64,000 nt of DNA from Dyadobacter flavalbus. Lineage in GTDB: Bacteria > Bacteroidota > Bacteroidia > Cytophagales > Spirosomataceae. Location: positions 558,001 to 622,000 of the forward strand of contig NZ_VBSN01000027.1 of assembly GCF_006149045.1 (NCBI RefSeq). Direction: 5' to 3'. Shown here one piece after another: positions 6,051 through 34,099 of the stretch. How positions within the stretch are numbered: position 1 is the stretch's first letter; each line of letters opens with the position of its first letter. The notes under the pieces are model-generated. The model worked only from the letters and a program-made list of their open reading frames with translations, made no database searches and had not been told where the DNA came from. The position numbers and the translations under genes are program-made.

Positions 6051-6509
6051 ATGGCCAACACATACACACAGATTCATTTACAAATCGTTTTTGCCGTTAA
6101 ACACCGCCAATGCCTTATTCATCCATCGTGGAAAGATGAGCTTTTCAAATATATGACGGGCATTATTCAGAACCATAATCATAAGGTACTTCAAATTAAT
6201 GGAATGCCGGATCATGTTCATATCCTGATTGGAATGAGGCCAACGCAGGCATTATCGGATTTAATGAAAAAGGTAAAAGGAGAATCTTCCGAATGGATTA
6301 ATAAAAATAAATTCATCAATACAAAATTCAGCTGGCAGGAAGGATTTGGAGCATTTTCCTATTCGCAGTCCCAATTACCGACAATCATCAATTACATCAG
6401 GAATCAGGAAGTACATCACAGCAAGAAATCGTTTCGAAAAGAATATCTAACAATGCTGGATAAAAATGACGTGCAATACGACGAACGATATGTATTTCAT
6501 GATGTCTGA
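6051..6509 (+). CDS. REP-associated tyrosine transposase (RAYT; IS200-like Y1 HUH nuclease)
   Basis: A 152-residue Y1 transposase. The HUH motif is in GMPDHVHILIG (H55, H57) and the catalytic tyrosine is in YIRNQ (Y115, with Q119 completing the metal site). GAFSYS and the EVHH run after the tyrosine are family features. The length fits single-domain TnpA-like proteins. REP-like hairpins in opposite orientation flank it on both sides, which separates RAYTs from true IS200 elements. RAYTs cut single-stranded REP DNA. The gene appears intact and sits within the hydroxyproline cluster, between the oxidase and the permease, on the same strand. A second RAYT lies at 26011-26487 and shares the MANTYTQ start. 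Confidence 0.9.
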   Translation: MANTYTQIHLQIVFAVKHRQCLIHPSWKDELFKYMTGIIQNHNHKVLQINGMPDHVHILIGMRPTQALSDLMKKVKGESSEWINKNKFINTKFSWQEGFGAFSYSQSQLPTIINYIRNQEVHHSKKSFRKEYLTMLDKNDVQYDERYVFHDV

Positions 6510-21263: not shown

Positions 21264-22142
21264 TCAAGCAAGCCTGTCGCGAAACTCCTTGTAATATTCG
21301 CCCGGCGACTTCCCGATTGTTTTTTTGAATACACGGTTGAAATTGGTGACGTTATCAAAGCCCGTTTGATAACTGATGTTCGAGAAGCTGTCGAAACGGC
21401 CGGAGAGGATGATCTTGCAGGCTTCGTTCACGCGCACTTCGTTCAGGAAACTGACAAAGGTTTTGTCCGTATGTTTCTTGAAATACCGGCAAAATGCCTG
21501 CGGCGTCAGATTGGCTACTTCCGAGATTTCAGTTAATGAAATGTGCTGCTTGTAATTGGTGACCAGATACTGGAAAATCTGATCCATACGGATTCCTTCG
21601 ACTTCTGAAATAAGCTGTTCACTGTTGCTGCTTGCAAGCGGTTTCATGTCGCGTGTGACCGAAAACAGGTGCATCAAAGAAATAAATGCGGCTACGCGCT
21701 GGCTGTCTTTGTTTTCCCTTACTTCGAAAATGATTTTTTTAACGGCGTCACTTGCTGCTGCCGGAATCTGGAATCCGTTATGCAGGCTTTCCACAAATTT
21801 TCTGATGCCGGCCATTTCAGGCAGGCTGAACAGGTTTTGGGAAAGTTGATGCGGGTCAAAAAAGATGGAAATGGAATGAACCTGTTTTTTCCCTTCCGGA
21901 TCAAAGTAAGCCTCGTCGTTTTTAAAAATATGTGACTGGTTGGCGCCTATAATATAAACTTCCCCTGCCTCAAAACGCTGCATGTAATTTCCGGCGATCA
22001 GGATTCCCGAGCCTTCCACAACCCACTCGATCTGTACTTCGCGATGCCTGTGCAAATGGTTGTAATAATGCGGCAGAATGTTTTCCTGCACCACAATGGT
22101 GTTCTCTTTCGAAACCGGAATGGTGAACTGAACAACTTTCAT
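21264..22142 (-). CDS. AraC-family regulator with N-terminal cupin
   Basis: A 292-residue protein with an N-terminal cupin (HYYNHLHRHREVQIEWVVEG) and a C-terminal double HTH domain (from about 190: LTEISEVANLTPQAFCRYF, then ISYQTGFDNVTNFNRVFKK). The HTH is in the place and of the length usual for AraC activators. It is the first gene of the minus-strand run and stands 54 bases before the oxoprolinase gene, so it likely controls that gene and its transporter. About 40 bases separate its start from the upstream terminator (22179-22217). Confidence 0.88.
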   Translation of the reverse strand: MKVVQFTIPVSKENTIVVQENILPHYYNHLHRHREVQIEWVVEGSGILIAGNYMQRFEAGEVYIIGANQSHIFKNDEAYFDPEGKKQVHSISIFFDPHQLSQNLFSLPEMAGIRKFVESLHNGFQIPAAASDAVKKIIFEVRENKDSQRVAAFISLMHLFSVTRDMKPLASSNSEQLISEVEGIRMDQIFQYLVTNYKQHISLTEISEVANLTPQAFCRYFKKHTDKTFVSFLNEVRVNEACKIILSGRFDSFSNISYQTGFDNVTNFNRVFKKTIGKSPGEYYKEFRDRLA

Positions 22143-22249: not shown

Positions 22250-25200
22250 TTATTTATTCAAAAGAGCCTGTTCCTTTACTACTTTCATGACACCTTTCAT
22301 CAGTCTCCAGTGACCCGGGAAAGTACAGACGAAAGGATAATCGCCGGTCTGATCCGGAACTACGAATTTGAGACGGAAAGTTTGTCCCGGATTTACAAGC
22401 GGCGTGGCAGCCAGAACCTGCGGTATGTTCGGCACATAATTTTTCTCGGCACCGTCTTTTGCGGTAATCATTTTATCGGCAGCTGTGCCAATGGTTTCGT
22501 ACGATTTCGGCTTTCCTACTACTACGTTATGCTGCATGGCATCCGGGTTTTCAAAAACCAGTTCAACGGTTTTTCCGGCAATGGCAGTGAATTCAGTCAG
22601 GCTGAACTTCATTTCTTCACGTATCGCCTTGATCTGTACAACCTGAACATTCGGATCAGCCGGCGTTTCATCTTTTATACCGTATGATTCCAGAAATGTA
22701 AGGTATCTGCTGTTCAGGTCGTCCGGAATATTGTTTTTCACCGATGCCAGCAAAGTCTTTGTTTCGGCGGAAGCCGTTTCTTTACGTTTCGGGTTCCATG
22801 CACCAAGGATTCCTTTCATCACGGCATTGCGGCCCTGCGGATCAAGCGACTGTGCTTTTGTAAGCAGCGTAACCACTTCATCACCTTTGGCATAGGATGT
22901 ATATCCGCGTGTAGCGCGTTCCAGTGCAAAGTCCGAAAGACGGTCAAGACGACGTACTTCAAAAGTTTTGCTCATCGTATTGTTCTTGTTCTCCTCTTTT
23001 TCAGGAACCACATTGTCAACGTCCACAGTAGCCGTAACGCTTACTTTGCCGGCCTCATCGGAAGTAAAGCCAAAAGCAGTTTTCCACGGACCGTTGTTTC
23101 CTTCAACCAGTTTTACCGTTTCGCCGGGCGCAATGCCGTTTGAAAGCTGGCGGCTGATGTAATTCGTATTCAATGAACGGCTTCTGATTCCTACATTGAC
23201 AACCGGCACCAGTTCTTTCGGAACGGCCACACTTCCCTGATTAGTAATTTCAATGACTACCCGCGCATATTCCCGTACATAAGGTGTTACGGGTTCAATA
23301 GTGATGTTGGTTATAGCTAGATCTGCCGAACCTTGCACGGTTACTTTATTGGCAGCGTGCGCGTCGTGGTTCATCGTTGAATGATCCATTGCTTTGGCTG
23401 TTTCCGTTTTTTGTGCAGAAGCATTGGAAGAAGAAGCCTTGCTGATGCGCTGTGCCAGATATTTTTCGCGTAAAGTACCGTTATGCGAATTCAGGATTGC
23501 TGCAAACGCATCCGGCATCCAGCGGTCGTCCGCCTGTGAATAGCTGTCAAGCAAACCAAGAACGGCATTTTCGATTTCCGGTGTAAACGGAATTTCAGAA
23601 AAGGCAAGCAATGTATTCATCACCACCAGCGGCTCTTTGTCGTGCAAGGCATCCGTAGTCAGCAATGCAATGCCGGTTGAGGCTGTGCGGGGCAATACTT
23701 TCACGGCTGTTTTACGAACGTCACCGGAAGGATGTTTCAAAGCTTCGGTAACAGTTGCAAGAACCTGCGGATCTTCCATCGCATTCAGTCCGTGCAAAGT
23801 CCACAAGGCATGAATAGCCGGTGCATTGATCCCGATTTCATCTACTGATTTGTCTTTAACCAGATCAAGCAGTTTGGAAACAACGTCTTTTTGTCCGCGT
23901 TCCACCAGCAGGCGCTGTGCATGCCGGCGCCATAGCATATTGGTGTTTTTCAAAGTAGCCACCAGTTCATCCGGACGGTCTTTGCTCAATGAAACCGGCT
24001 TGTACTCCGGCGCGTTTTTCCATGCAATGCGGTAAAGACGGCCATGTGTATAATCACGCAGATCGGTTTCATACGCATTTCCTTTTCCGTTTTCCGATCC
24101 TTTTGGCGTCGGGTTATGCTGAATGATAAAGCTGTACCAGTCTGCAACCCACACGGCGCCGTCTGGCCCGACTTCTGCAAAAACAGGAGAAACCCATTCG
24201 TCCGCTCCGGCCAGCAAGTTGAATCCAAGTACATCTTCAAAGTCAGTGCCTTTTTTGGCCATTACATTCTGGTGCAGAATATGTCCGGTCGGCTCGGAAA
24301 CAAACGCAACTCTGTTCCAGTAACTTTTCGGAAACGCTCTTGCAGTATAGAAATTATGTCCGGCTGCGGCTGTAAATCCGCCGAATACGTCCACCTGACG
24401 AACTTTCGGCGTAATTGGCTGCATGTCTTTATGCGTATCGGTACTGCGGCTTCCGTTATCCACTTTGCTGTTGCCAAAGTAACGGTTCGGAATCGCACTA
24501 TACCAGCCGTGTGAGTTATTTGCCGTAGAGCCAAACAGGTCGCCCGTTTCATTAAAGCCGAGTCCCCACGTGTTGTTGGATGTTTTGGCCACAATTTCCA
24601 TATTCGATCCGTCCGGCTTGAAACGGAACAGTGCCTGTCCGAAATCCAGTGAATCGCTTTGACCTACTTTTCCTTTGAAACCCGAGTAGCCGACTGATCC
24701 GTAAACCCAGTTGTCAAATCCGTAATGCAGATTGGAAGGCCCGGCATGTGTGTCACCTGTTCCGAATCCTGAGAAAAGGATTTTCTTCACGTCCGCTTTG
24801 TCATCGCCGTCTGTATCCTGCAGGAAAAGCATGTGCGGTGCCTGCGAAACGATTAATCCGCCGTTGGCAAAAACGAGGCCGGTCGGAATGCTGAGGTCGT
24901 CGGAGAACTTGGTGAATTTGTCTGCTTTTCCGTCCTTGTTTGTGTCTTCACAAATGAGGATGTAATCGCTTCCGCCGGTGTCTTTGCGCTCATTCGGATA
25001 ATCTTTTGTGATCAGTACGAACAACCTGCCTTTTTCATCCCACGTCATCGCAATCGGGTGCATAACGTCAGGCTCGTGCGCGAAAACATCCAGTGTAAAA
25101 TCAACCGGAATCTGAATGTGCTTTACGGACTCTTCAGGTGAAAGCGGCAATTGCTGCAACTGAGGACCGGGGCGCTGTTCGTAGTTGGGAAGTTTGGCTT

Positions 25201-26014
25201 CGCGGTATTCAAATGGCTTTGGATTCAATGCTGCCAGCGATTTTCTGGCGTCATCATTAACCGCCCACAAAATTCCTTTTTCCAGCAGATCCTGAAATCC
25301 CTGAACCGCCCAAGTGCGCTCGTCATGGCCGTAAGCGGTATAAAAAACACGTCCTTTTCCATGTGTCCTTACCCAAGTATAGGGTTCTTTTGTTTGTCCG
25401 GGCTTGTCATTTTCCTGATCTTTCTGGATCGTGCGTTCGGTAAGAACTATGTTATCCGGTTCCAGCAAAGTGTGCAGATATGTTTCATCTACGGTTTTAA
25501 AAGGTTTTACACCCGCAATGGCAGGATGGTCAGGCTTGGACCATACCGGCTGAATGGTGTCCCACGTATGTCTCCAGAACTGGCCGCCGATGAGTTTTAC
25601 AACTTCCGGATTGTTCCTGAAACAATAAGAGGCACAGTGCACCGGAATAAAGCCTTTGCCGCTCGCAACGAAATCGAGCAGTGATTTTGCCTGTTTCGGA
25701 GCAATGGAATCCCAGTTTGCGAAAAGCATCAGTGCATCGTATTTGCCTAACGTTTCCGGGTTAAGGTCGTCCAGATTATCGGTATAAGTGAAGTTGAAGC
25801 CTTTTGGCCCCAGCGCCGCCATAATCTGCGGAACACGTTCAGCGGGTTTGTGATGACCTTCTTTGTCACCCATAAACAGGATTTCAAGGCGCCGTGCCCT
25901 GACGGTTTCATTCTTCGAGGACGCGCTTTTGACCGAGGCGTTCTGTGAAGTTTGTTTGACGGCACAGCCCAGCAGGACTATGCCAAGTAAAAAGGATAAC
26001 GCTCTGGCTTTCAT
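22250..26014 (-). CDS. Multidomain lipoprotein: ThuA, PVC-type propeller, HEAT-like, CARDB and azurin-like cupredoxin
   Basis: A 1254-residue lipoprotein. A lipobox (IVLLGC, C17) is followed by a ThuA/glutamine-amidotransferase-like domain (about 43-255, with IPVHCASYCF and GHDERTW). Next come a PVC-type membrane-bound dehydrogenase propeller (about 300-680: FAHEPDVMHPIAMTWDEKG, THAGPSNLHYGFDNWVYG), a HEAT-like helical part (about 690-850) and a CARDB-like beta domain (about 893-1010). The C-terminus is an azurin-type cupredoxin (about 1135-1254). The copper ligands fit azurin exactly in spacing: H1162 (MQHNVVVG), C1230, H1235 and M1239 in CTFPGHWRLMKG. There is no CxxCH haem site, although homologues often end in cytochrome c. 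The start ATG overlaps the stop of RAYT 2. It probably oxidises a sugar at the cell envelope (inference). Confidence 0.88.
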   Translation of the reverse strand: MKARALSFLLGIVLLGCAVKQTSQNASVKSASSKNETVRARRLEILFMGDKEGHHKPAERVPQIMAALGPKGFNFTYTDNLDDLNPETLGKYDALMLFANWDSIAPKQAKSLLDFVASGKGFIPVHCASYCFRNNPEVVKLIGGQFWRHTWDTIQPVWSKPDHPAIAGVKPFKTVDETYLHTLLEPDNIVLTERTIQKDQENDKPGQTKEPYTWVRTHGKGRVFYTAYGHDERTWAVQGFQDLLEKGILWAVNDDARKSLAALNPKPFEYREAKLPNYEQRPGPQLQQLPLSPEESVKHIQIPVDFTLDVFAHEPDVMHPIAMTWDEKGRLFVLITKDYPNERKDTGGSDYILICEDTNKDGKADKFTKFSDDLSIPTGLVFANGGLIVSQAPHMLFLQDTDGDDKADVKKILFSGFGTGDTHAGPSNLHYGFDNWVYGSVGYSGFKGKVGQSDSLDFGQALFRFKPDGSNMEIVAKTSNNTWGLGFNETGDLFGSTANNSHGWYSAIPNRYFGNSKVDNGSRSTDTHKDMQPITPKVRQVDVFGGFTAAAGHNFYTARAFPKSYWNRVAFVSEPTGHILHQNVMAKKGTDFEDVLGFNLLAGADEWVSPVFAEVGPDGAVWVADWYSFIIQHNPTPKGSENGKGNAYETDLRDYTHGRLYRIAWKNAPEYKPVSLSKDRPDELVATLKNTNMLWRRHAQRLLVERGQKDVVSKLLDLVKDKSVDEIGINAPAIHALWTLHGLNAMEDPQVLATVTEALKHPSGDVRKTAVKVLPRTASTGIALLTTDALHDKEPLVVMNTLLAFSEIPFTPEIENAVLGLLDSYSQADDRWMPDAFAAILNSHNGTLREKYLAQRISKASSSNASAQKTETAKAMDHSTMNHDAHAANKVTVQGSADLAITNITIEPVTPYVREYARVVIEITNQGSVAVPKELVPVVNVGIRSRSLNTNYISRQLSNGIAPGETVKLVEGNNGPWKTAFGFTSDEAGKVSVTATVDVDNVVPEKEENKNNTMSKTFEVRRLDRLSDFALERATRGYTSYAKGDEVVTLLTKAQSLDPQGRNAVMKGILGAWNPKRKETASAETKTLLASVKNNIPDDLNSRYLTFLESYGIKDETPADPNVQVVQIKAIREEMKFSLTEFTAIAGKTVELVFENPDAMQHNVVVGKPKSYETIGTAADKMITAKDGAEKNYVPNIPQVLAATPLVNPGQTFRLKFVVPDQTGDYPFVCTFPGHWRLMKGVMKVVKEQALLNK

Positions 26015-26487
26015 TTGCTTGTTATTACGTTTTCTTCAAAATCAAAAAGGTATTCTTCCTTGTAATCTATACCAAAATCATTCAGGATTCTGATATACTC
26101 TTGCTTGAATGTTTTTGTCAGGTGATGTATTTCCTGATTTCCAATGTACTTAACGACACGATGGATATGAGAGCGGCTGTATGAAAATGCGCCATATCCT
26201 TTTTGCCAGTTAAATGCAGAAACTGAATAATTGTCTTTGATAAATTTATTCGAGGATGTTTTAATTTCCTCTACCAGTTTTGCTACGGAAACAGCAGGGT
26301 TGTATCCGAAAAAGATATGAATATGATCCGGCATTCCGTTTATGGCAAGCGGCTTGCATCCCTGTTTTGTTAAAATGCCGCCGATGTAAGCATAAAGGTC
26401 ACTTTTCCATTTCATGCTGATCAGATTTTCTCTCCCTCTTACCGCAAAAACGACTTGAATGTATAGCTGTGTGTATGTATTCGCCAT
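26011..26487 (-). CDS. REP-associated tyrosine transposase (RAYT) 2
   Basis: A 158-residue Y1 HUH transposase with the HUH pair in GMPDHIHIFFG (H55, H57) and the catalytic tyrosine in YIGNQ (Y114, Q118). MANTYTQ, INGMPDH, GAFSYS and the HH after the tyrosine are shared with RAYT 1, but the proteins differ over most of their length. REP-like hairpins lie only on the 5' side (26515-26633). On the 3' side its TGA overlaps the ATG of the large lipoprotein gene (ATGA), so the two genes may be translationally coupled. The last residues (FEENVITSK) may be read-through of flanking DNA. Confidence 0.9.
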   Translation of the reverse strand: MANTYTQLYIQVVFAVRGRENLISMKWKSDLYAYIGGILTKQGCKPLAINGMPDHIHIFFGYNPAVSVAKLVEEIKTSSNKFIKDNYSVSAFNWQKGYGAFSYSRSHIHRVVKYIGNQEIHHLTKTFKQEYIRILNDFGIDYKEEYLFDFEENVITSK

Positions 26488-26706: not shown

Positions 26707-27831
26707 TCAGACATTCTTGAAATCCGGCAGCTGGATCAATGCGCCGCCTTGCAATGCCGATTCATGTGCCAGAATTCCCACGCTTGTCCAGTTTGCCGAT
26801 TGTGCTGCATTCGGGAAAGGATCACGGTCTTCAATCAATGCGCTGATGAATTCATGTGCAAGGTGCGGGTGCGAACCACCGTGGCCGCCGCCCTGTACAA
26901 ACGACAAATGGGCGTTGTCATCCAGGTTATAAACGCCGTGACCGGTAAAGTGACGTATTTCTTCCGGAAGATAATGTGCATAATCGGGCGTTGTCACGCG
27001 TTCTGCAATTTCGTGCTCCGGCTTTTTGGCTGTATGGATTACAGGATCTTCGCCTTCGATCAGCGGCCATTCAAATGATTTCTTGCTTCCGTAAACCTCA
27101 AAGCTTTCGCGGTACTGACGCGCCACATCAAATAATGAACGGTAAACATAAGCCGACAAATCGCTGTCTTTGAATTTAATATGCGCGGATTCAACGGCAA
27201 ACGGCGAGTTGTGGATCTTTGCAAGATCTTCACTGATCGTTCCCGATCCGAAACACGAAACATATTCGGCTTCCAGTTTCAGCAAACCTGCAACGGGACC
27301 TACGCAGTGCGTTGCATAATGCATCGGAGGCAATCCGGGCCAGTAATCGGGCCAGCCTTCCATATCCTGCTGGTGACTTGCTTTCAGGAACTGCACTTTG
27401 CCGAGTTCTCCTTTTTCGTACAGTTCTTTTACAAACAGGAATTCCCGTGCATATACCACGGTTTCCATCATCATATATTTTTTTCCGGATTCTTTGGTAG
27501 CTTTTACAATTTCCATGCAATCTTCCACGCTTGTTGCCATGGGTACCGTGCAGGCAACGTGCTTTCCGGCGCGCAGGGCTTTCAGTGTTTGTTCGGCATG
27601 ATTCGGAATTGGTGAGTTGATATGTACAGCATCTACATTCGGGTCATTCAGAAGGTCATCGTAACTGGTGTAGCGTACATCAATTCCGTACTGATCGCCG
27701 ACAGCATTCAGTTTGGATTCCGTACGCTGGCATATTGCATACATATTGGCATTGGGATGCTGCTGATAGATAGGAATAAATTCGGCTCCGAAGCCCAGTC
27801 CGACAATAGCAACATTAATTTTTTGAGACAT
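26707..27831 (-). CDS. Gfo/Idh/MocA-family sugar oxidoreductase
   Basis: A 374-residue cytosolic protein. The N-terminal Rossmann domain has VAIVGLGFGAEF and the AGKHVACTVPMA segment, where the usual EKP is TVP. The C-terminal alpha/beta domain carries MHYATHCVGP and a histidine-rich loop GGGHGGSHPHLAHEF. The family oxidises or reduces sugars and inositols with NAD(P). The changed EKP lysine is notable. The gene has its own upstream region with a 29-bp motif (27958-27986) also found before the sugar isomerase at 31291-32127. RAYT 2 and its REPs lie downstream. Confidence 0.88.
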   Translation of the reverse strand: MSQKINVAIVGLGFGAEFIPIYQQHPNANMYAICQRTESKLNAVGDQYGIDVRYTSYDDLLNDPNVDAVHINSPIPNHAEQTLKALRAGKHVACTVPMATSVEDCMEIVKATKESGKKYMMMETVVYAREFLFVKELYEKGELGKVQFLKASHQQDMEGWPDYWPGLPPMHYATHCVGPVAGLLKLEAEYVSCFGSGTISEDLAKIHNSPFAVESAHIKFKDSDLSAYVYRSLFDVARQYRESFEVYGSKKSFEWPLIEGEDPVIHTAKKPEHEIAERVTTPDYAHYLPEEIRHFTGHGVYNLDDNAHLSFVQGGGHGGSHPHLAHEFISALIEDRDPFPNAAQSANWTSVGILAHESALQGGALIQLPDFKNV

Positions 27832-27957
27832 ATTTATTACAGGTTAATGATTCGGTTTACAGGTTTGAGGAAGCAGATGACAAGGTAATTTCCTCAACGA
27901 AAGAACATAGGATTGACAATACAATTTTAAAGCAAAATAATACTAAAAACTTTACGT

Positions 27958-27986
27958 CTTTTGATTAGTACTGACTGTATTTTGAT
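27958..27986 (-). promoter_or_regulatory. 29-bp motif shared with 32360-32388, copy 1
   Basis: CTTTTGATTAGTACTGACTG (27958-27977) is identical to 32360-32379, and the next nine bases match at seven. It lies 127 bases upstream of the Gfo/Idh gene start on the minus strand. Two TTTGAT boxes 21 bp apart fit two AraC-type half-sites. Confidence 0.65.
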
Positions 27987-28068
27987 CTTTTTTTAATTGA
28001 TGTGAAATTTAATTGCAAAATAATGCTTGAAATTACTGCTGTCATCCATAACTTTTAACTTAGTTCCT

Positions 28069-28623
28069 ATGATACGTTCCGCTTTACCCGAAGATGCGCC
28101 TGCTGTGGCTCCGTTACTTGTTCTTGCAATGGACCATATTGCAGGCATTTTTGCCGGATCAGCAAATTATACGGATGCAATTCCTTTCTTTCATGCGTTT
28201 TTTGAAGCGGATAATAACCAGTACAGTTATACCAATACGCTGGTTTTTGAAGATAGAAAAATGGTAATCGGCTCTGTAACGGGTTATGACGGAGCAAGGC
28301 TGCATGAACTGAGAAAGCCGGTTGTGGACAAATTACGTGAATCAAATCCTGAATTTACGCCCGAAGATGAAACCGAAGCCGGTGAATTTTACATCGATTG
28401 TGTTAGCGTTCATCCGGAACATCAGGGGAAAGGAGTTGGTAAAAAGCTGATCCTTGCCATTTGTGACAAAGCTGCTGCATCAGGATTTGAACGTGTGGGC
28501 CTGATTGTCGATCAGGTAAATCCGCAGGCAAAAAGGCTGTATGAAAAGCTGGGTTTTGAAGTGGCCGGAGAAAAGGATTTTCTGGGTCACCGGTATTTCC
28601 ATATGGTTAAAAAAGTATTGTAA
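28069..28623 (+). CDS. GNAT-family N-acetyltransferase
   Basis: A 184-residue GNAT protein. Motif A is VSVHPEHQGKGVGKKLI (acetyl-CoA pyrophosphate loop QGKGVG), and the C-terminus has NPQAKRLYEKLGFEV. The substrate is unknown. The ATG at 28069 (MIRSALPEDAPAV) is chosen over 28027, because the extra residues do not resemble the fold. It is single, divergent from the Gfo/Idh gene. The 237-base gap between them holds the 29-bp motif. Confidence 0.9.
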   Translation: MIRSALPEDAPAVAPLLVLAMDHIAGIFAGSANYTDAIPFFHAFFEADNNQYSYTNTLVFEDRKMVIGSVTGYDGARLHELRKPVVDKLRESNPEFTPEDETEAGEFYIDCVSVHPEHQGKGVGKKLILAICDKAAASGFERVGLIVDQVNPQAKRLYEKLGFEVAGEKDFLGHRYFHMVKKVL

Positions 28624-28769
28624 CTGAACTCTGATAACCGGAGTCTGTGATTTTGTCTGTTCTATCCAGAAACCGGAATGCAGGTTTGAGCTTCTTAAAA
28701 GGATGTGAAGGAAATTTACCTAAATTGCTTCTTTAAATTTTTTAAGAATTCAAATTTTTACCTGAATCC

Positions 28770-30212
28770 ATGTTTCAAAGAAGAACATTCATAAAAACCG
28801 GTGCACTGGCAGTGGCCGGAATCGCTGCTTCGCAGTGGTCATTTGCCAAAAATGCTGCAGACTTTCCGGTTGTACGGATTCCTGCGGACAAGCGCAGTTT
28901 TACAAGTCCGGCGGTGGAAGCAACGATAACCCGGATGAAAAAGGTGATCAAAGATCCGGAGCTGGCCTGGCTTTTTGAAAACTGTTTTCCCAATACGATT
29001 GATACAACTGTTCATTATAAACCGATTGACGGCAAGCCCGATACCTTCGTAATCACCGGCGATATTGATGCCATGTGGCTGCGCGACAGTACGGCGCAGG
29101 TATGGCCGTACTTGCCTTTGCTGAAAGAAGACAGCAAACTGAAAGACATGGTGGCCGGCCTGATCAACAGACAGACCAAATGCATCAACATTGATCCTTA
29201 TGCCAATGCATTTTATGACCGGCCGAAAGAGAGCGAATGGACAAAGGATGCCACGGATATGAAACCGATGCTGCATGAACGCAAATGGGAGCTGGATTCA
29301 CTTTGTTACACGATCAGGCTGGCTTATAATTACTGGAAAATAACGGGTGATACGAAGCCTTTTGATGCGGACTGGCGAAAAGCAATGGGACTGATCCTGA
29401 AAACCTGCAAAGAACAGCAGCGGAAAGACGGTCCGGGTCCTTACAAATTCGGACGCGTTACTTCATGGTCGACGGATACGGTTCCCGGAAACGGATACGG
29501 AAATCCGGTTAAGCCGAACGGCCTGATTGCAAGTACTTTCCGACCGTCGGATGATGCCGCGATTTATCCTTTTTTCATTCCGTCCAATTTCTTTGCAGTG
29601 GTTTCTTTCCGTGAAATAGCCGAGCTGCTGGAAAAAACGGGCGGCTCCGCAGGAGGGCAGGATGCCGCGCTTGCTGCCGATTTCCGGGCACTGGCGCTGG
29701 AAGTTGAAAATGCATTGAAAAAATACGCCGTATATCCGCATCCGGAATTTGGTAAAATCTATGCTTTTGAAGTGGACGGCTTCGGCAACTATCTGCTGAT
29801 GGACGATGCAGGTATTCCGGGTTTGATCAGCATGCCGTATCTGGGCGCCATGCCGGTGAAAGATCCGATCTATATGAATACCAGAAAGTTTGTGCTGAGT
29901 GACTCCAATCCTTATTTCTTTAAAGGAAAAGCAGGCGAAGGGCTGGGCAGTCCGCATACTTTGGTCAATCAGATCTGGCCGATGGGAATCATTGCGCGTG
30001 CGATCACATCAACGGACGACAAGGAAATTGAAGCGCAGCTGAAATTGCTGAAAACAACGCATAATCATACGGGTTTCATGCATGAATCCTTTGACAAAGA
30101 CGACCAGTCCAAATTCACCCGTAAATGGTTTGCATGGGTAAATACCTTGTTCGGAGAGCTGATTCTGAAACTTGAAAAAGAAAGGCCGCATTTGCTGGCC
30201 AAGGTTTACTGA
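28770..30212 (+). CDS. GH125 exo-alpha-1,6-mannosidase
   Basis: A 480-residue protein with a Tat signal (RRTFIKTGALAVAGIAASQW) and a full-length GH125 (alpha/alpha)6 barrel. The family markers are GDIDAMWLRDSTAQVWPYL (D106), FRPSDDAAIYPFFIPSN, LGSPHTLVNQIWPM and the C-terminal GFMHESFDKD, which holds the conserved glutamate. GH125 enzymes release mannose from alpha-1,6 linkages of N-glycans or yeast mannan. The Tat signal places it in the periplasm. It is single-gene, with a terminator directly after. Confidence 0.93.
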   Translation: MFQRRTFIKTGALAVAGIAASQWSFAKNAADFPVVRIPADKRSFTSPAVEATITRMKKVIKDPELAWLFENCFPNTIDTTVHYKPIDGKPDTFVITGDIDAMWLRDSTAQVWPYLPLLKEDSKLKDMVAGLINRQTKCINIDPYANAFYDRPKESEWTKDATDMKPMLHERKWELDSLCYTIRLAYNYWKITGDTKPFDADWRKAMGLILKTCKEQQRKDGPGPYKFGRVTSWSTDTVPGNGYGNPVKPNGLIASTFRPSDDAAIYPFFIPSNFFAVVSFREIAELLEKTGGSAGGQDAALAADFRALALEVENALKKYAVYPHPEFGKIYAFEVDGFGNYLLMDDAGIPGLISMPYLGAMPVKDPIYMNTRKFVLSDSNPYFFKGKAGEGLGSPHTLVNQIWPMGIIARAITSTDDKEIEAQLKLLKTTHNHTGFMHESFDKDDQSKFTRKWFAWVNTLFGELILKLEKERPHLLAKVY

Positions 30213-30258
30213 GCCATTTTGTTACAGCTTATCACTGAATTGAAAATGCATTTAACGA

Positions 30259-30293
30259 AAGAAGCCGGAATCGCATGATTTCGGCTTCTTTTT
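30259..30293 (+). terminator. Intrinsic terminator after GH125
   Basis: Perfect 9-bp arms AAGAAGCCG (30259-30267) and CGGCTTCTT (30282-30290) with a T run (TTCTTTTTATT). It also lies just before the convergent pirin stop. Confidence 0.8.
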
Positions 30294-30309
30294 ATTGTAA
30301 ATCAATTGC

Positions 30310-31170
30310 CTAATGCTTCCAGCTCCCGAACTTTCCGCGCTGATAATCCTGATAAGCCTGTTCGATTTCATATTCCGAATTCATGACAAAAGGGCCTTGC
30401 GCAACAACCGGTTCATGGTTCGGCTTTGCATGACCGATCAGCAGCAGGCTGTTTTCTTTGGCTTCGACCTGGATTTCCCCGTTTTCTGTATCAAATTCAA
30501 CCAGTTCCAGTTTATTTACTTCTTCATTGTTTACGTTCAGTTTTCCCTGAATTACATAAAACAGAACCGTACGTCCTTCGGGAATATCTACATTGATTTT
30601 GCCGCCTTTCTGAAAACCGATTGTGGCAATGTGTACATCCGCAATGGATTGCAGGCTGCCTTTTTGTCCAAACCATTCACCGGAAACAGCATCAGCAACA
30701 ACTTTGCCTTCATCCAGCGCAATATGCGGAATGTCATCTTTTTGCAAACCCGTATAGGCCGGTTCCGTATTTTTCAGATTGGCCGGCAGATTAACCCAAA
30801 GCTGAAGAATTTCCACGTTCCCGCCATTGGCCAGGAATTCTTTCGAAGAATTTTCAGAATGAATAATGCCTTTTCCCGCAGTCATCCATTGAATTCCTCC
30901 GGCCTCGATCTTGCTGTTATAGCCGGTACTGTCCGTATGAACAATGTCTCCTTCCACGATAAATGTAACCGTTTCAAAACCTTTGTGCGGGTGAGGTCCG
31001 AAAGGCAAACCTCTGTTCCGGGAAGGATACGTCTGCGGCCCGTGATGATTAAGAAAAAGAAACGGTTCGAGGTCATCAATGGCGACTTCCTGCGACGGCA
31101 TAACGCGATAGGTTACAAGTCCGCCCATGTCCGCCCGGACGGCCCTGAATATATTTTTAATCGTTTTCAT
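30310..31170 (-). CDS. Pirin-family bicupin protein
   Basis: A 286-residue protein with the pirin metal site GPHPHKGFETVTF, GKGIIHSE and the second cupin in the C-terminal half. Bacterial pirins may act as quercetinases or as redox sensors; the role here is open. It has no signal peptide. Two perfect inverted repeats lie directly upstream (31188-31216, 31246-31271). The gene is close to, but probably separate from, the isomerase that ends at 31291. Confidence 0.9.
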   Translation of the reverse strand: MKTIKNIFRAVRADMGGLVTYRVMPSQEVAIDDLEPFLFLNHHGPQTYPSRNRGLPFGPHPHKGFETVTFIVEGDIVHTDSTGYNSKIEAGGIQWMTAGKGIIHSENSSKEFLANGGNVEILQLWVNLPANLKNTEPAYTGLQKDDIPHIALDEGKVVADAVSGEWFGQKGSLQSIADVHIATIGFQKGGKINVDIPEGRTVLFYVIQGKLNVNNEEVNKLELVEFDTENGEIQVEAKENSLLLIGHAKPNHEPVVAQGPFVMNSEYEIEQAYQDYQRGKFGSWKH

Positions 31171-31187
31171 AACTATGTTTTTATACT

Positions 31188-31271
31188 TCTTTCAGACTTT
31201 AATGTAATCTGAAAGAAAATAGTTTATGTACGGACTATTCAAAAGTATAGCGGTCAATTGTTGCCGCTATA
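31188..31271 (-). promoter_or_regulatory. Two inverted repeats upstream of pirin
   Basis: TCTTTCAGA-N11-TCTGAAAGA (31188-31216) begins 18 bases before the pirin ATG, and TATAGCGG-N10-CCGCTATA (31246-31271) lies 20 bases after the isomerase stop. The first may be an operator. The second may be a terminator for the isomerase gene. Confidence 0.5.
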
Positions 31272-31290
31272 GATTAATTTGACTATATTC

Positions 31291-32127
31291 TTACTGGGCT
31301 CCCGAAATGCCGGATTTGATAAAAGCAAGTCCGTCGCGCATCAGCTGTTCTTCGGATTCAAACATTTTCCGCCAGATATTCGCAACCGGAAGTTTGGGAC
31401 TGAATGCCTCGATACTGATCCAGCCGTCGTATCGGATGTCTTTTATTGCCTGAAAAATTCCCGTCCAGTCCACGTTTCCTTTTCCCGGCGTAGACCTGTC
31501 GTTTTCAGAAAGCTGGATAAATGAAATCCGGTCGCCGGCCTTGCGCATGGTGTCGCCGATGTTTTTCTCCTCAATATTGGCATGAAAAGTATCGAACATG
31601 ATTTTGCAGTTGGGATGATTTACTTCATCCACAAAGCGGATCAGTTCATCGCCGCAGCTTGTAAGATACAGTTCAAAACGGTTCAGGTATTCCAGCCCGA
31701 GCGTGATGTCCAGCGATTCGGCATAATCTGCAACTTCCCGGATGCCTTCAATTCCCCATTTCCATTCGTCTTCTGTTGCCGGCTTGCCCGAAAATACGCC
31801 TAATGCCGAATGGTAAGGGCCCATTAATTTGGTTGCGCCCAGAACAAGCGAGCAGTCAAGCGCTTTCTTAAGATGTTCAACGGTATGTCTTCGCATGGCG
31901 GGATCAGCGCTGATGAGATGCTCGTCCGGGCCGCAGATGGTATCCGTTTCACAGGCAAGTCCGAGATCGTCGAGTTTCTTTCTGAAATTAAACCAATGCG
32001 CAGGATCGGTATTGAAAATCGGAACTTCCACGCCGTCAAACCCTATTTCCCTGATCAGTTCAAGCGTTGGGAAAAGGCTTTCGTCTATTTGATTTCCCCA
32101 AAGCAGGAGATTCATGCTGTACTTCAT
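31291..32127 (-). CDS. Sugar phosphate isomerase/epimerase (xylose isomerase-like TIM barrel)
   Basis: A 278-residue cytosolic AP-endonuclease-2/xylose-isomerase-like TIM barrel. The metal ligands of the ketose 3-epimerase type are visible in order: GLEYLNRFE, IMFDTFHANIEE, the SENDRSTPGKGNVDW segment and SIEAFS. The protein is close in pattern to D-tagatose/D-psicose 3-epimerases. The upstream region (32128-32503, no gene) carries the second copy of the 29-bp motif shared with the Gfo/Idh gene, so the two are probably co-regulated. Confidence 0.88.
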   Translation of the reverse strand: MKYSMNLLLWGNQIDESLFPTLELIREIGFDGVEVPIFNTDPAHWFNFRKKLDDLGLACETDTICGPDEHLISADPAMRRHTVEHLKKALDCSLVLGATKLMGPYHSALGVFSGKPATEDEWKWGIEGIREVADYAESLDITLGLEYLNRFELYLTSCGDELIRFVDEVNHPNCKIMFDTFHANIEEKNIGDTMRKAGDRISFIQLSENDRSTPGKGNVDWTGIFQAIKDIRYDGWISIEAFSPKLPVANIWRKMFESEEQLMRDGLAFIKSGISGAQ

Positions 32128-32359
32128 TCAAATTGGTTTTTGCCGTTCAATCTTTACAATTGCCCGGATTGATAATAAAAATATTCAGATCAAATATGCT
32201 GTTACAAGTGGCTGCCGGCCATTGGCTTCAGGTTTTCAGAAAGATCAGGTTCTGGCAGAGAGCAAGTTGTAAAAACGGAAACGCTCAATCGCTTTCAGGC
32301 AAATACCCGGATCGAAATGCGTACAATTTTACAATAAAAAAATACAGTGTTTTTATTCG

Positions 32360-32388
32360 CTTTTGATTAGTACTGACTGCATATTGAT
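32360..32388 (-). promoter_or_regulatory. 29-bp motif shared with 27958-27986, copy 2
   Basis: CTTTTGATTAGTACTGACTG (32360-32379) is identical to copy 1; the next bases CATATTGAT differ at two of nine. It is 233 bases upstream of the isomerase start on the minus strand. Apart from this motif and the terminator at 32448-32486, I see nothing else in the 376-base gap. Confidence 0.65.
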
Positions 32389-33139: not shown

Positions 33140-33233
33140 TTTCTTTTTGCTGTAAGCACAAAAAGAAAAGAATTACTGACCTTATTTTGACATTTATATT
33201 CACATTTGATGATATTTGAAGGTAAAATAAGGT
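33140..33233 (+). promoter_or_regulatory. Leader of the AraC gene with two inverted repeats
   Basis: TTTCTTTTTG/CAAAAAGAAA (33140-33149, 33159-33168) and ACCTTATTTT/AAAATAAGGT (33179-33188, 33224-33233). The right arm of the second ends 5 bases before the ATG and includes the AAGG ribosome-binding sequence, so a transcript starting upstream could hide it. The rest of the 306-base gap (32933-33238) shows nothing else. Confidence 0.5.
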
Positions 33234-33238
33234 AAGAA

Positions 33239-34099
33239 ATGAAGGCGCCAATTCATAAAAACATCGAAAGTCAGGTAAGAACCGTAACCATACAGGAACT
33301 AAAAGCCGCTTATTTTGACCCAAACTGGCATTTTCATCCGCATTACCAGCTTTTTACGGTTCTGGAAGGAACCGGCAAGCGGCTTATCGGTGATTCCGTA
33401 CAGACTTTCGGCCCGGGCGATACCGTGTTTCTCGGACCCGACGTTCCGCATTTATGGCGCAGTGACCCGGCTTATTTTGAAAACGATTCTGCGTTGTTTA
33501 CGCACGGGGTTGTACTGTATTTTCAGGAAGATTTTCTGGGCAGGGATTTTCTGGAAAAACCTGAAATGCTTGCCTTGCGGCAGCTGCTGCTGGACAGCAA
33601 AAGAGGAATCGAATACAAAGGCTCGCTACGCGAACACATTCGCTCCGAGTTGATGTCTTTGATGCATCAGGAAGGTTTTCAAAGTATTATTCAGCTGCTT
33701 GCCTTGCTGCACAAGCTTGCACATGATCCGGGCGGTTCGCCGATTTCCAGTTACGGTTACGTGAATACCTACAAAGTTTCGGAAACCGAACGCATGCAGA
33801 AAGTTCACAATTATGTACTTCAGCATTTTGCACAGGAAATAAGGCTCGGCGATGTCGCGTCATTGGCCGGAATGACGGAAGCTGCTTTTTGCCGTTATTT
33901 CAAGGCAAGGTCAAACAAGACGTTCATCGATTTTGTAAATGAAATCCGGATCGGGCATGCCTGCAAATTGCTGCTGGAAGACAAATGGACCATTGCCCAG
34001 ATTGCCTACGACAGCGGGTTTGATTCTTTGTCCAATTTCAACCGGAACTTCAAGCGTTACATTGGCCACACGCCAAGGGAGTACAAAGGAAATTATTGA
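33239..34099 (+). CDS. AraC-family regulator with N-terminal cupin
   Basis: A 286-residue protein with a sugar-cupin N-terminus (WHFHPHYQLFTVLEGTGKRL, GPDVPHLWRSD) and two HTH motifs at the C-terminus (LGDVASLAGMTEAAFCRYF; IAYDSGFDSLSNFNRNFKRY), ending GHTPREYKGNY. It stands between the sugar isomerase and the uxuA/Gfo-Idh operon and is the best candidate for a local sugar-responsive activator. The 29-bp motif with 21-bp spaced boxes could be its target (inference). Confidence 0.9.
   Translation: MKAPIHKNIESQVRTVTIQELKAAYFDPNWHFHPHYQLFTVLEGTGKRLIGDSVQTFGPGDTVFLGPDVPHLWRSDPAYFENDSALFTHGVVLYFQEDFLGRDFLEKPEMLALRQLLLDSKRGIEYKGSLREHIRSELMSLMHQEGFQSIIQLLALLHKLAHDPGGSPISSYGYVNTYKVSETERMQKVHNYVLQHFAQEIRLGDVASLAGMTEAAFCRYFKARSNKTFIDFVNEIRIGHACKLLLEDKWTIAQIAYDSGFDSLSNFNRNFKRYIGHTPREYKGNY

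Follow-up and report, generated by a model that had tools for sequence, protein, structure and literature searches.

The window analysed here, a 64,000-nucleotide stretch of the Dyadobacter flavalbus genome, carries two copies of a 29-bp motif, each upstream of a minus-strand sugar-enzyme gene, and a nearby gene for an AraC-type regulator. The features concerned are as follows.

22250-26014, minus strand: gene for a ThuA, DUF7133 and azurin-like protein, downstream of GFO1; it abuts GFO1 in other genera
26707-27831, minus strand: GFO1, Gfo/Idh/MocA oxidoreductase, proposed from the sequence as the target of site 1
27922-27929, minus strand: predicted -7 box of site 1, TAAAATTG, with a predicted start near 27917
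27945-27965, minus strand: downstream 21-bp half-site of site 1, ATCAAAAGACGTAAAGTTTTT, predicted at about -48 to -28
27958-27986, read on the minus strand: motif copy 1, 27/29 identical to copy 2
27966-27986, minus strand: upstream 21-bp half-site of site 1, ATCAAAATACAGTCAGTACTA, kept in all Dyadobacter loci fetched
31291-32127, minus strand: ISO, TIM-barrel isomerase/epimerase, proposed from the sequence as the target of site 2
32324-32331, minus strand: predicted -7 box of site 2, TAAAATTG, with a predicted start near 32319
32347-32367, minus strand: downstream 21-bp half-site of site 2, A-box retained, B-box indistinct
32360-32388, read on the minus strand: motif copy 2, 27/29 identical to copy 1
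32368-32388, minus strand: upstream 21-bp half-site of site 2, ATCAATATGCAGTCAGTACTA
33173-33191, minus strand: GTCAAAATAAGGTCAGTAA, resembling a single half-site, ahead of the AraC gene at 33239 itself
33239-34099, plus strand: AraC-type regulator (cupin and AraC HTH), proposed as the cognate regulator from its domains and neighbourhood

The repeated motif and its layout

A sequence-only reading of this DNA had reported a repeat at 27958 and 32360, followed by nine bases matching at seven, upstream of two minus-strand genes. Both observations were confirmed: the 20-bp word CTTTTGATTAGTACTGACTG has the same letters at 27958-27977 and 32360-32379, the nine bases that follow it (TATTTTGAT and CATATTGAT) agree at 7/9, and the genes are those of the Gfo/Idh/MocA oxidoreductase and the TIM-barrel isomerase. 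The number of matches to the 20-bp word expected by chance, with up to 3 mismatches allowed, was 0.00 in dinucleotide shuffles. The closest PDB relatives of ISO are D-tagatose/D-psicose 3-epimerases, and an NCBIfam search with GFO1 and ISO gave no equivalog above the cut-off. The product of 22250-26014 is a protein of 1254 aa with ThuA, DUF7133 (TIGR02604, PVC-type), HEAT-like and azurin-like domains.

Read on the minus strand, the 29-bp motif is ATCAAAATACAGTCAGTACTAATCAAAAG in the window and opens two tandem 21-bp half-sites, in which an A-box (TCAAAA) and a B-box (AGTC or AGT) can be recognised. The sequence TAAAATTG lies at columns 58-65 in both copies, an equal spacing that goes beyond what the earlier reading had seen, and is close to the -7 consensus TAnnTTTG reported for Flavobacterium (PMC9723704). 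When placed by this predicted -7 box, the proximal half-site overlaps the -33/-35 region, which corresponds to the layout of an AraC activator site. TTTTGAT/TATTGAT boxes recur exactly 21 bp apart, and the proposal that such boxes represent AraC-type half-sites gained support from other genera, where self-similarity among the sites is greatest at 21 bp.

Conservation within Dyadobacter

The 19-bp core was present with at most 2 mismatches in 24 of 37 Dyadobacter genomes, the host genome counted, and a 70-column profile matched the element in 41/41 Dyadobacter genomes searched, a profile built from 12 sequences of Dyadobacter loci, which match by construction as the remaining genomes do not. 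Across the genus the minus-strand form of the element reads RTCAAAATACAGTCAGTACTAATCAAAAG...AGTTTTTAGCATTATTTTGCTTTAAAATTG. GFO1 is preceded by a site in every fetched Dyadobacter region holding GFO1, and ISO is preceded by site 2 in 23 of the 24 loci with AraC and ISO, in some of them weakly (about 20 bits); the exception is L078, where site 2 before ISO was not flagged. Site 1 is less variable than site 2, and the features which site 2 has retained, a -7 box and TCAA boxes with 21-bp spacing, are therefore informative. These Dyadobacter sites were located without reference to AraC and still fall in the AraC cluster, the usual order of which, with variations, is ThuA/azurin - GFO1 - site 1 ... 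ISO - site 2 - (META) - AraC - GFO2 - ThuA - SDR.

In the first set of loci the element was found before GFO1 in most cases; three loci had it before ISO and five before the gene of a SusC-type receptor. In L070-L073, L075-L077, L080-L082 and L086 a third copy stands elsewhere in the genome, ahead of a SusC/SusD-type pair. Of 12 loci inspected later, each with a third site away from the cluster, 11 had a SusC-sized gene directly 3', SusD was confirmed in both of those tested (2/2), and the twelfth locus, L074, had a GH43 gene about 1.3 kb off.

Two single-domain IS200-like (Y1_Tnp) transposase genes are also present in the window, at 26011-26487 (minus strand) and 6051-6509 (plus strand), and in several further Dyadobacter loci (L089, L092-L094, L097, L103 and L105) a relative occupies the interval that separates GFO1 from the ThuA/azurin gene. 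This position may have been targeted more than once, or the gene may have been kept there.

The AraC regulator

The 286-aa protein encoded at 33239-34099 has a C-terminal AraC-type double HTH (HTH_18, E 6.4e-23; HTH_AraC, 3.4e-14) and an N-terminal cupin-type ligand domain of the sugar-responsive subgroup (Cupin_2, 2.1e-8; AraC_binding, 8.7e-7). One clear ortholog was found in each of 41/41 Dyadobacter genomes at 72-100% identity (99% in D. sediminis), the next paralog being at 41%, and orthologs at about 50-70% identity occur across much of the family. The link drawn earlier between the motif and this gene is borne out by its distribution, since the motif tracks AraC 33239 orthologs through many genera, in the adjoining divergent gap. 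The lone half-site-like sequence upstream of AraC recurs at comparable spacing in many species of Dyadobacter, a META gene lying between, and could possibly serve in autoregulation.

The window contains a second AraC gene, at 21264-22142, also put forward earlier as a candidate. Lying at the end of the Dyadobacter GFO1-ThuA run, it could be envisaged to regulate its own operon through the site, and it does share strand and run with GFO1, both in the window and in many Dyadobacter genomes. However, at E<=1e-70 no ortholog of it was found in G065, G073 and G077 (complete) or in G075 (82% complete), all of which have strong sites, and in other genera it was not encountered next to the ThuA gene. 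In the same four genomes AraC 33239 orthologs adjoin the site, in loci picked by that gene. AraC 33239 is thus the likely regulator and AraC 21264 is not; we regard control by the latter as very unlikely.

Other genera and the probable operon split

In the usual arrangement outside Dyadobacter, AraC is divergent from an ISO-GFO1-ThuA/azurin run and a single element lies in the AraC-ISO gap; these loci were selected by their AraC gene, and linkage there is no unbiased count. A matrix made solely from Dyadobacter GFO1 promoters, with p-values taken against dinucleotide shuffles of each AraC upstream region, found a site at p<=0.01 in 26 of 40 non-Dyadobacter AraC upstream regions. It gave no site at that threshold in the other 14/40, three Flavobacteriaceae loci among them, though in these three a CAGTCAGTTATGG or CAGTTAGTTATGG core is visible. 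When the sites from outside Dyadobacter are compared with themselves, similarity is highest at an offset of 21 (0.49 vs about 0.3), so that across the 40 loci the element has the tandem direct repeats of an AraC-type activator operator. The element adjoins AraC in Pontibacter, Botryobacter, Imperialibacter, a Cyclobacteriaceae bin and a Saprospiraceae bin, and in several of these distant relatives the divergent neighbour of AraC is the ThuA/azurin gene.

These loci also bear on another view of the motif, namely that it is a palindromic operator, centred on AGTACT, for a GntR- or LacI-type repressor. While AGTACT is self-complementary in the window copies, this centre is not conserved in other genera (e.g. 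CAGTCAGTATTGGCTAA), where the 21-bp tandem boxes are retained, and the conserved neighbour gene encodes AraC rather than GntR or LacI. We regard a repressor palindrome as very unlikely.

Because other genera have one run and one site, the window would represent a split operon with a copied operator. The spacer of site 1 is alike at 12/15 positions to the single sites of three other genera, which fits an origin of the second operator copy by duplication, and we infer duplication rather than convergence.

Further arrangements were observed around the same genes. The 1254-aa ThuA/azurin gene adjoins AraC 33239 orthologs even in distant families where ISO and GFO1 were not seen alongside. A 638-aa gene lies between AraC and ISO in L145 (AAA helicase-like) and, at the same place, in L163, the site staying near ISO with weak scores (p 0.08 and 0.03, respectively), and in the Runella loci L206/L207 a 628-aa gene occupies the gap between AraC and ISO.

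Rarity in the host genome

A genome-wide motif search gave two strong copies, plus a near match inside trpA. With a 29-column profile the window copies scored 38.8 and 34.9 bits and the runner-up 13.8 bits, and in the 6.5-Mb genome a third non-coding copy of like strength was absent. The only further match at up to 3 mismatches, C46, was rejected as a third site, lying within the trpA coding sequence. Three weak profile matches without a 21-bp pair were also rejected: C60 is inside a called ORF, C44 overlaps the start of an 805-aa ORF, and C28 coincides with the 3' ends of a convergent gene pair. In the sister species G006 a SusC gene bears a site; the host genome has only a 48% relative of that SusC, and no third member was found there.

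The motif is thus not a dispersed repeat unrelated to gene starts. A reading without a dedicated regulator, in which the motif would be a mobile or dispersed repeat or simply a core promoter that the two genes share through coincidence or a recent copying event, is very unlikely, for although the -7 box belongs to the shared sequence, there are just two copies in 6.5 Mb, they are conserved before these genes across dozens of species, the element also adjoins the AraC gene in other genera, and the 29-bp part sits upstream of the core promoter.

Proposed mechanism

The motif is very probably where a neighbouring AraC-type regulator lands on the DNA, with one copy ahead of each of two sugar-enzyme genes; relatives have these genes in a single operon, which is split here. 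The protein encoded at 33239-34099 would recognise an operator of which each copy is the upstream portion. This operator would be formed by a pair of tandem 21-bp half-sites, the second of which overlaps the -33 region, so that protein bound there would contact RNA polymerase; binding of a sugar-like ligand by its cupin domain would switch on transcription. ISO would be driven by one copy, and GFO1 together with the ThuA/azurin gene by the other. Activation is favoured over repression because of the placement of the half-sites and the known behaviour of the AraC family. In the simplest history, ISO, GFO1 and ThuA/azurin would ancestrally have made up a single run that lay divergent to araC and had a single operator; in Dyadobacter, genes inserted on the other strand would have split this run, the GFO1 part gaining its own operator copy. 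Several features count against this reading: the matrix gave no site at p<=0.01 in 14 of the 40 loci from other genera, which were themselves selected by their AraC gene; the second half-site of site 2 has no distinct B-box, so that this unit may be weaker; and the predicted ISO leader is long (192 nt). Taken as a whole, an activating AraC 33239 operator, copied with the splitting of the operon, is nonetheless an explanation in which we place high confidence from the comparative sequence evidence.

Relation to known systems

In Escherichia coli, AraC at araI1-araI2 occupies a pair of direct-repeat half-sites with a spacing of 21 bp, of which the second overlaps the -35 region. The proposed Dyadobacter operator is alike in its direct-repeat pair at 21 bp and in the predicted position of the second half-site, and differs in its Bacteroidota promoter and its half-site sequence. 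Direct repeats of 21 bp have been described for AraC-family rhamnose regulators (PMC3870299), and the RhaR motifs of Bacteroides and other groups resemble the present case in that an AraC-type regulator adjoins sugar genes; however, RhaR serves the rhamnose pathway, and its motif sequences are described as unique to each group (PMC3870299). The HTCS motifs of B. thetaiotaomicron are likewise direct repeats, with tandem sites on average 21 bp apart, recognised through an AraC-type DNA-binding domain (PMC3878776). In contrast to an HTCS, in which periplasmic sensor, kinase and receiver are fused to an AraC domain, AraC 33239 is a 286-aa cupin and HTH protein without sensor kinase or receiver. 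Since 21-bp direct repeats are described for both the rhamnose regulators and HTCS, the AraC 33239 operator belongs to a known class and the type of switch is well known. The AraC 33239 switch itself seems to be undescribed; a literature search for a Dyadobacter regulon of the AraC/21-bp-operator type found nothing relevant.

This analysis proposes a regulator, an operator and targets for a sugar gene set widely conserved in Bacteroidota. We give an even chance to the broader reading that this AraC switch controls an undescribed oxidative sugar pathway in several Bacteroidota families, comprising the Gfo/Idh/MocA oxidoreductase, the ketose-3-epimerase-like isomerase and the ThuA/azurin protein; the Dyadobacter operator would have been copied at the split and, in some species, again before SusC/SusD transport genes, and would thus have spread after the operon broke up. 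The step from a single operator in other genera to two in Dyadobacter and three in some species provides a natural series in which to follow how a regulon coheres during the break-up of its operon.
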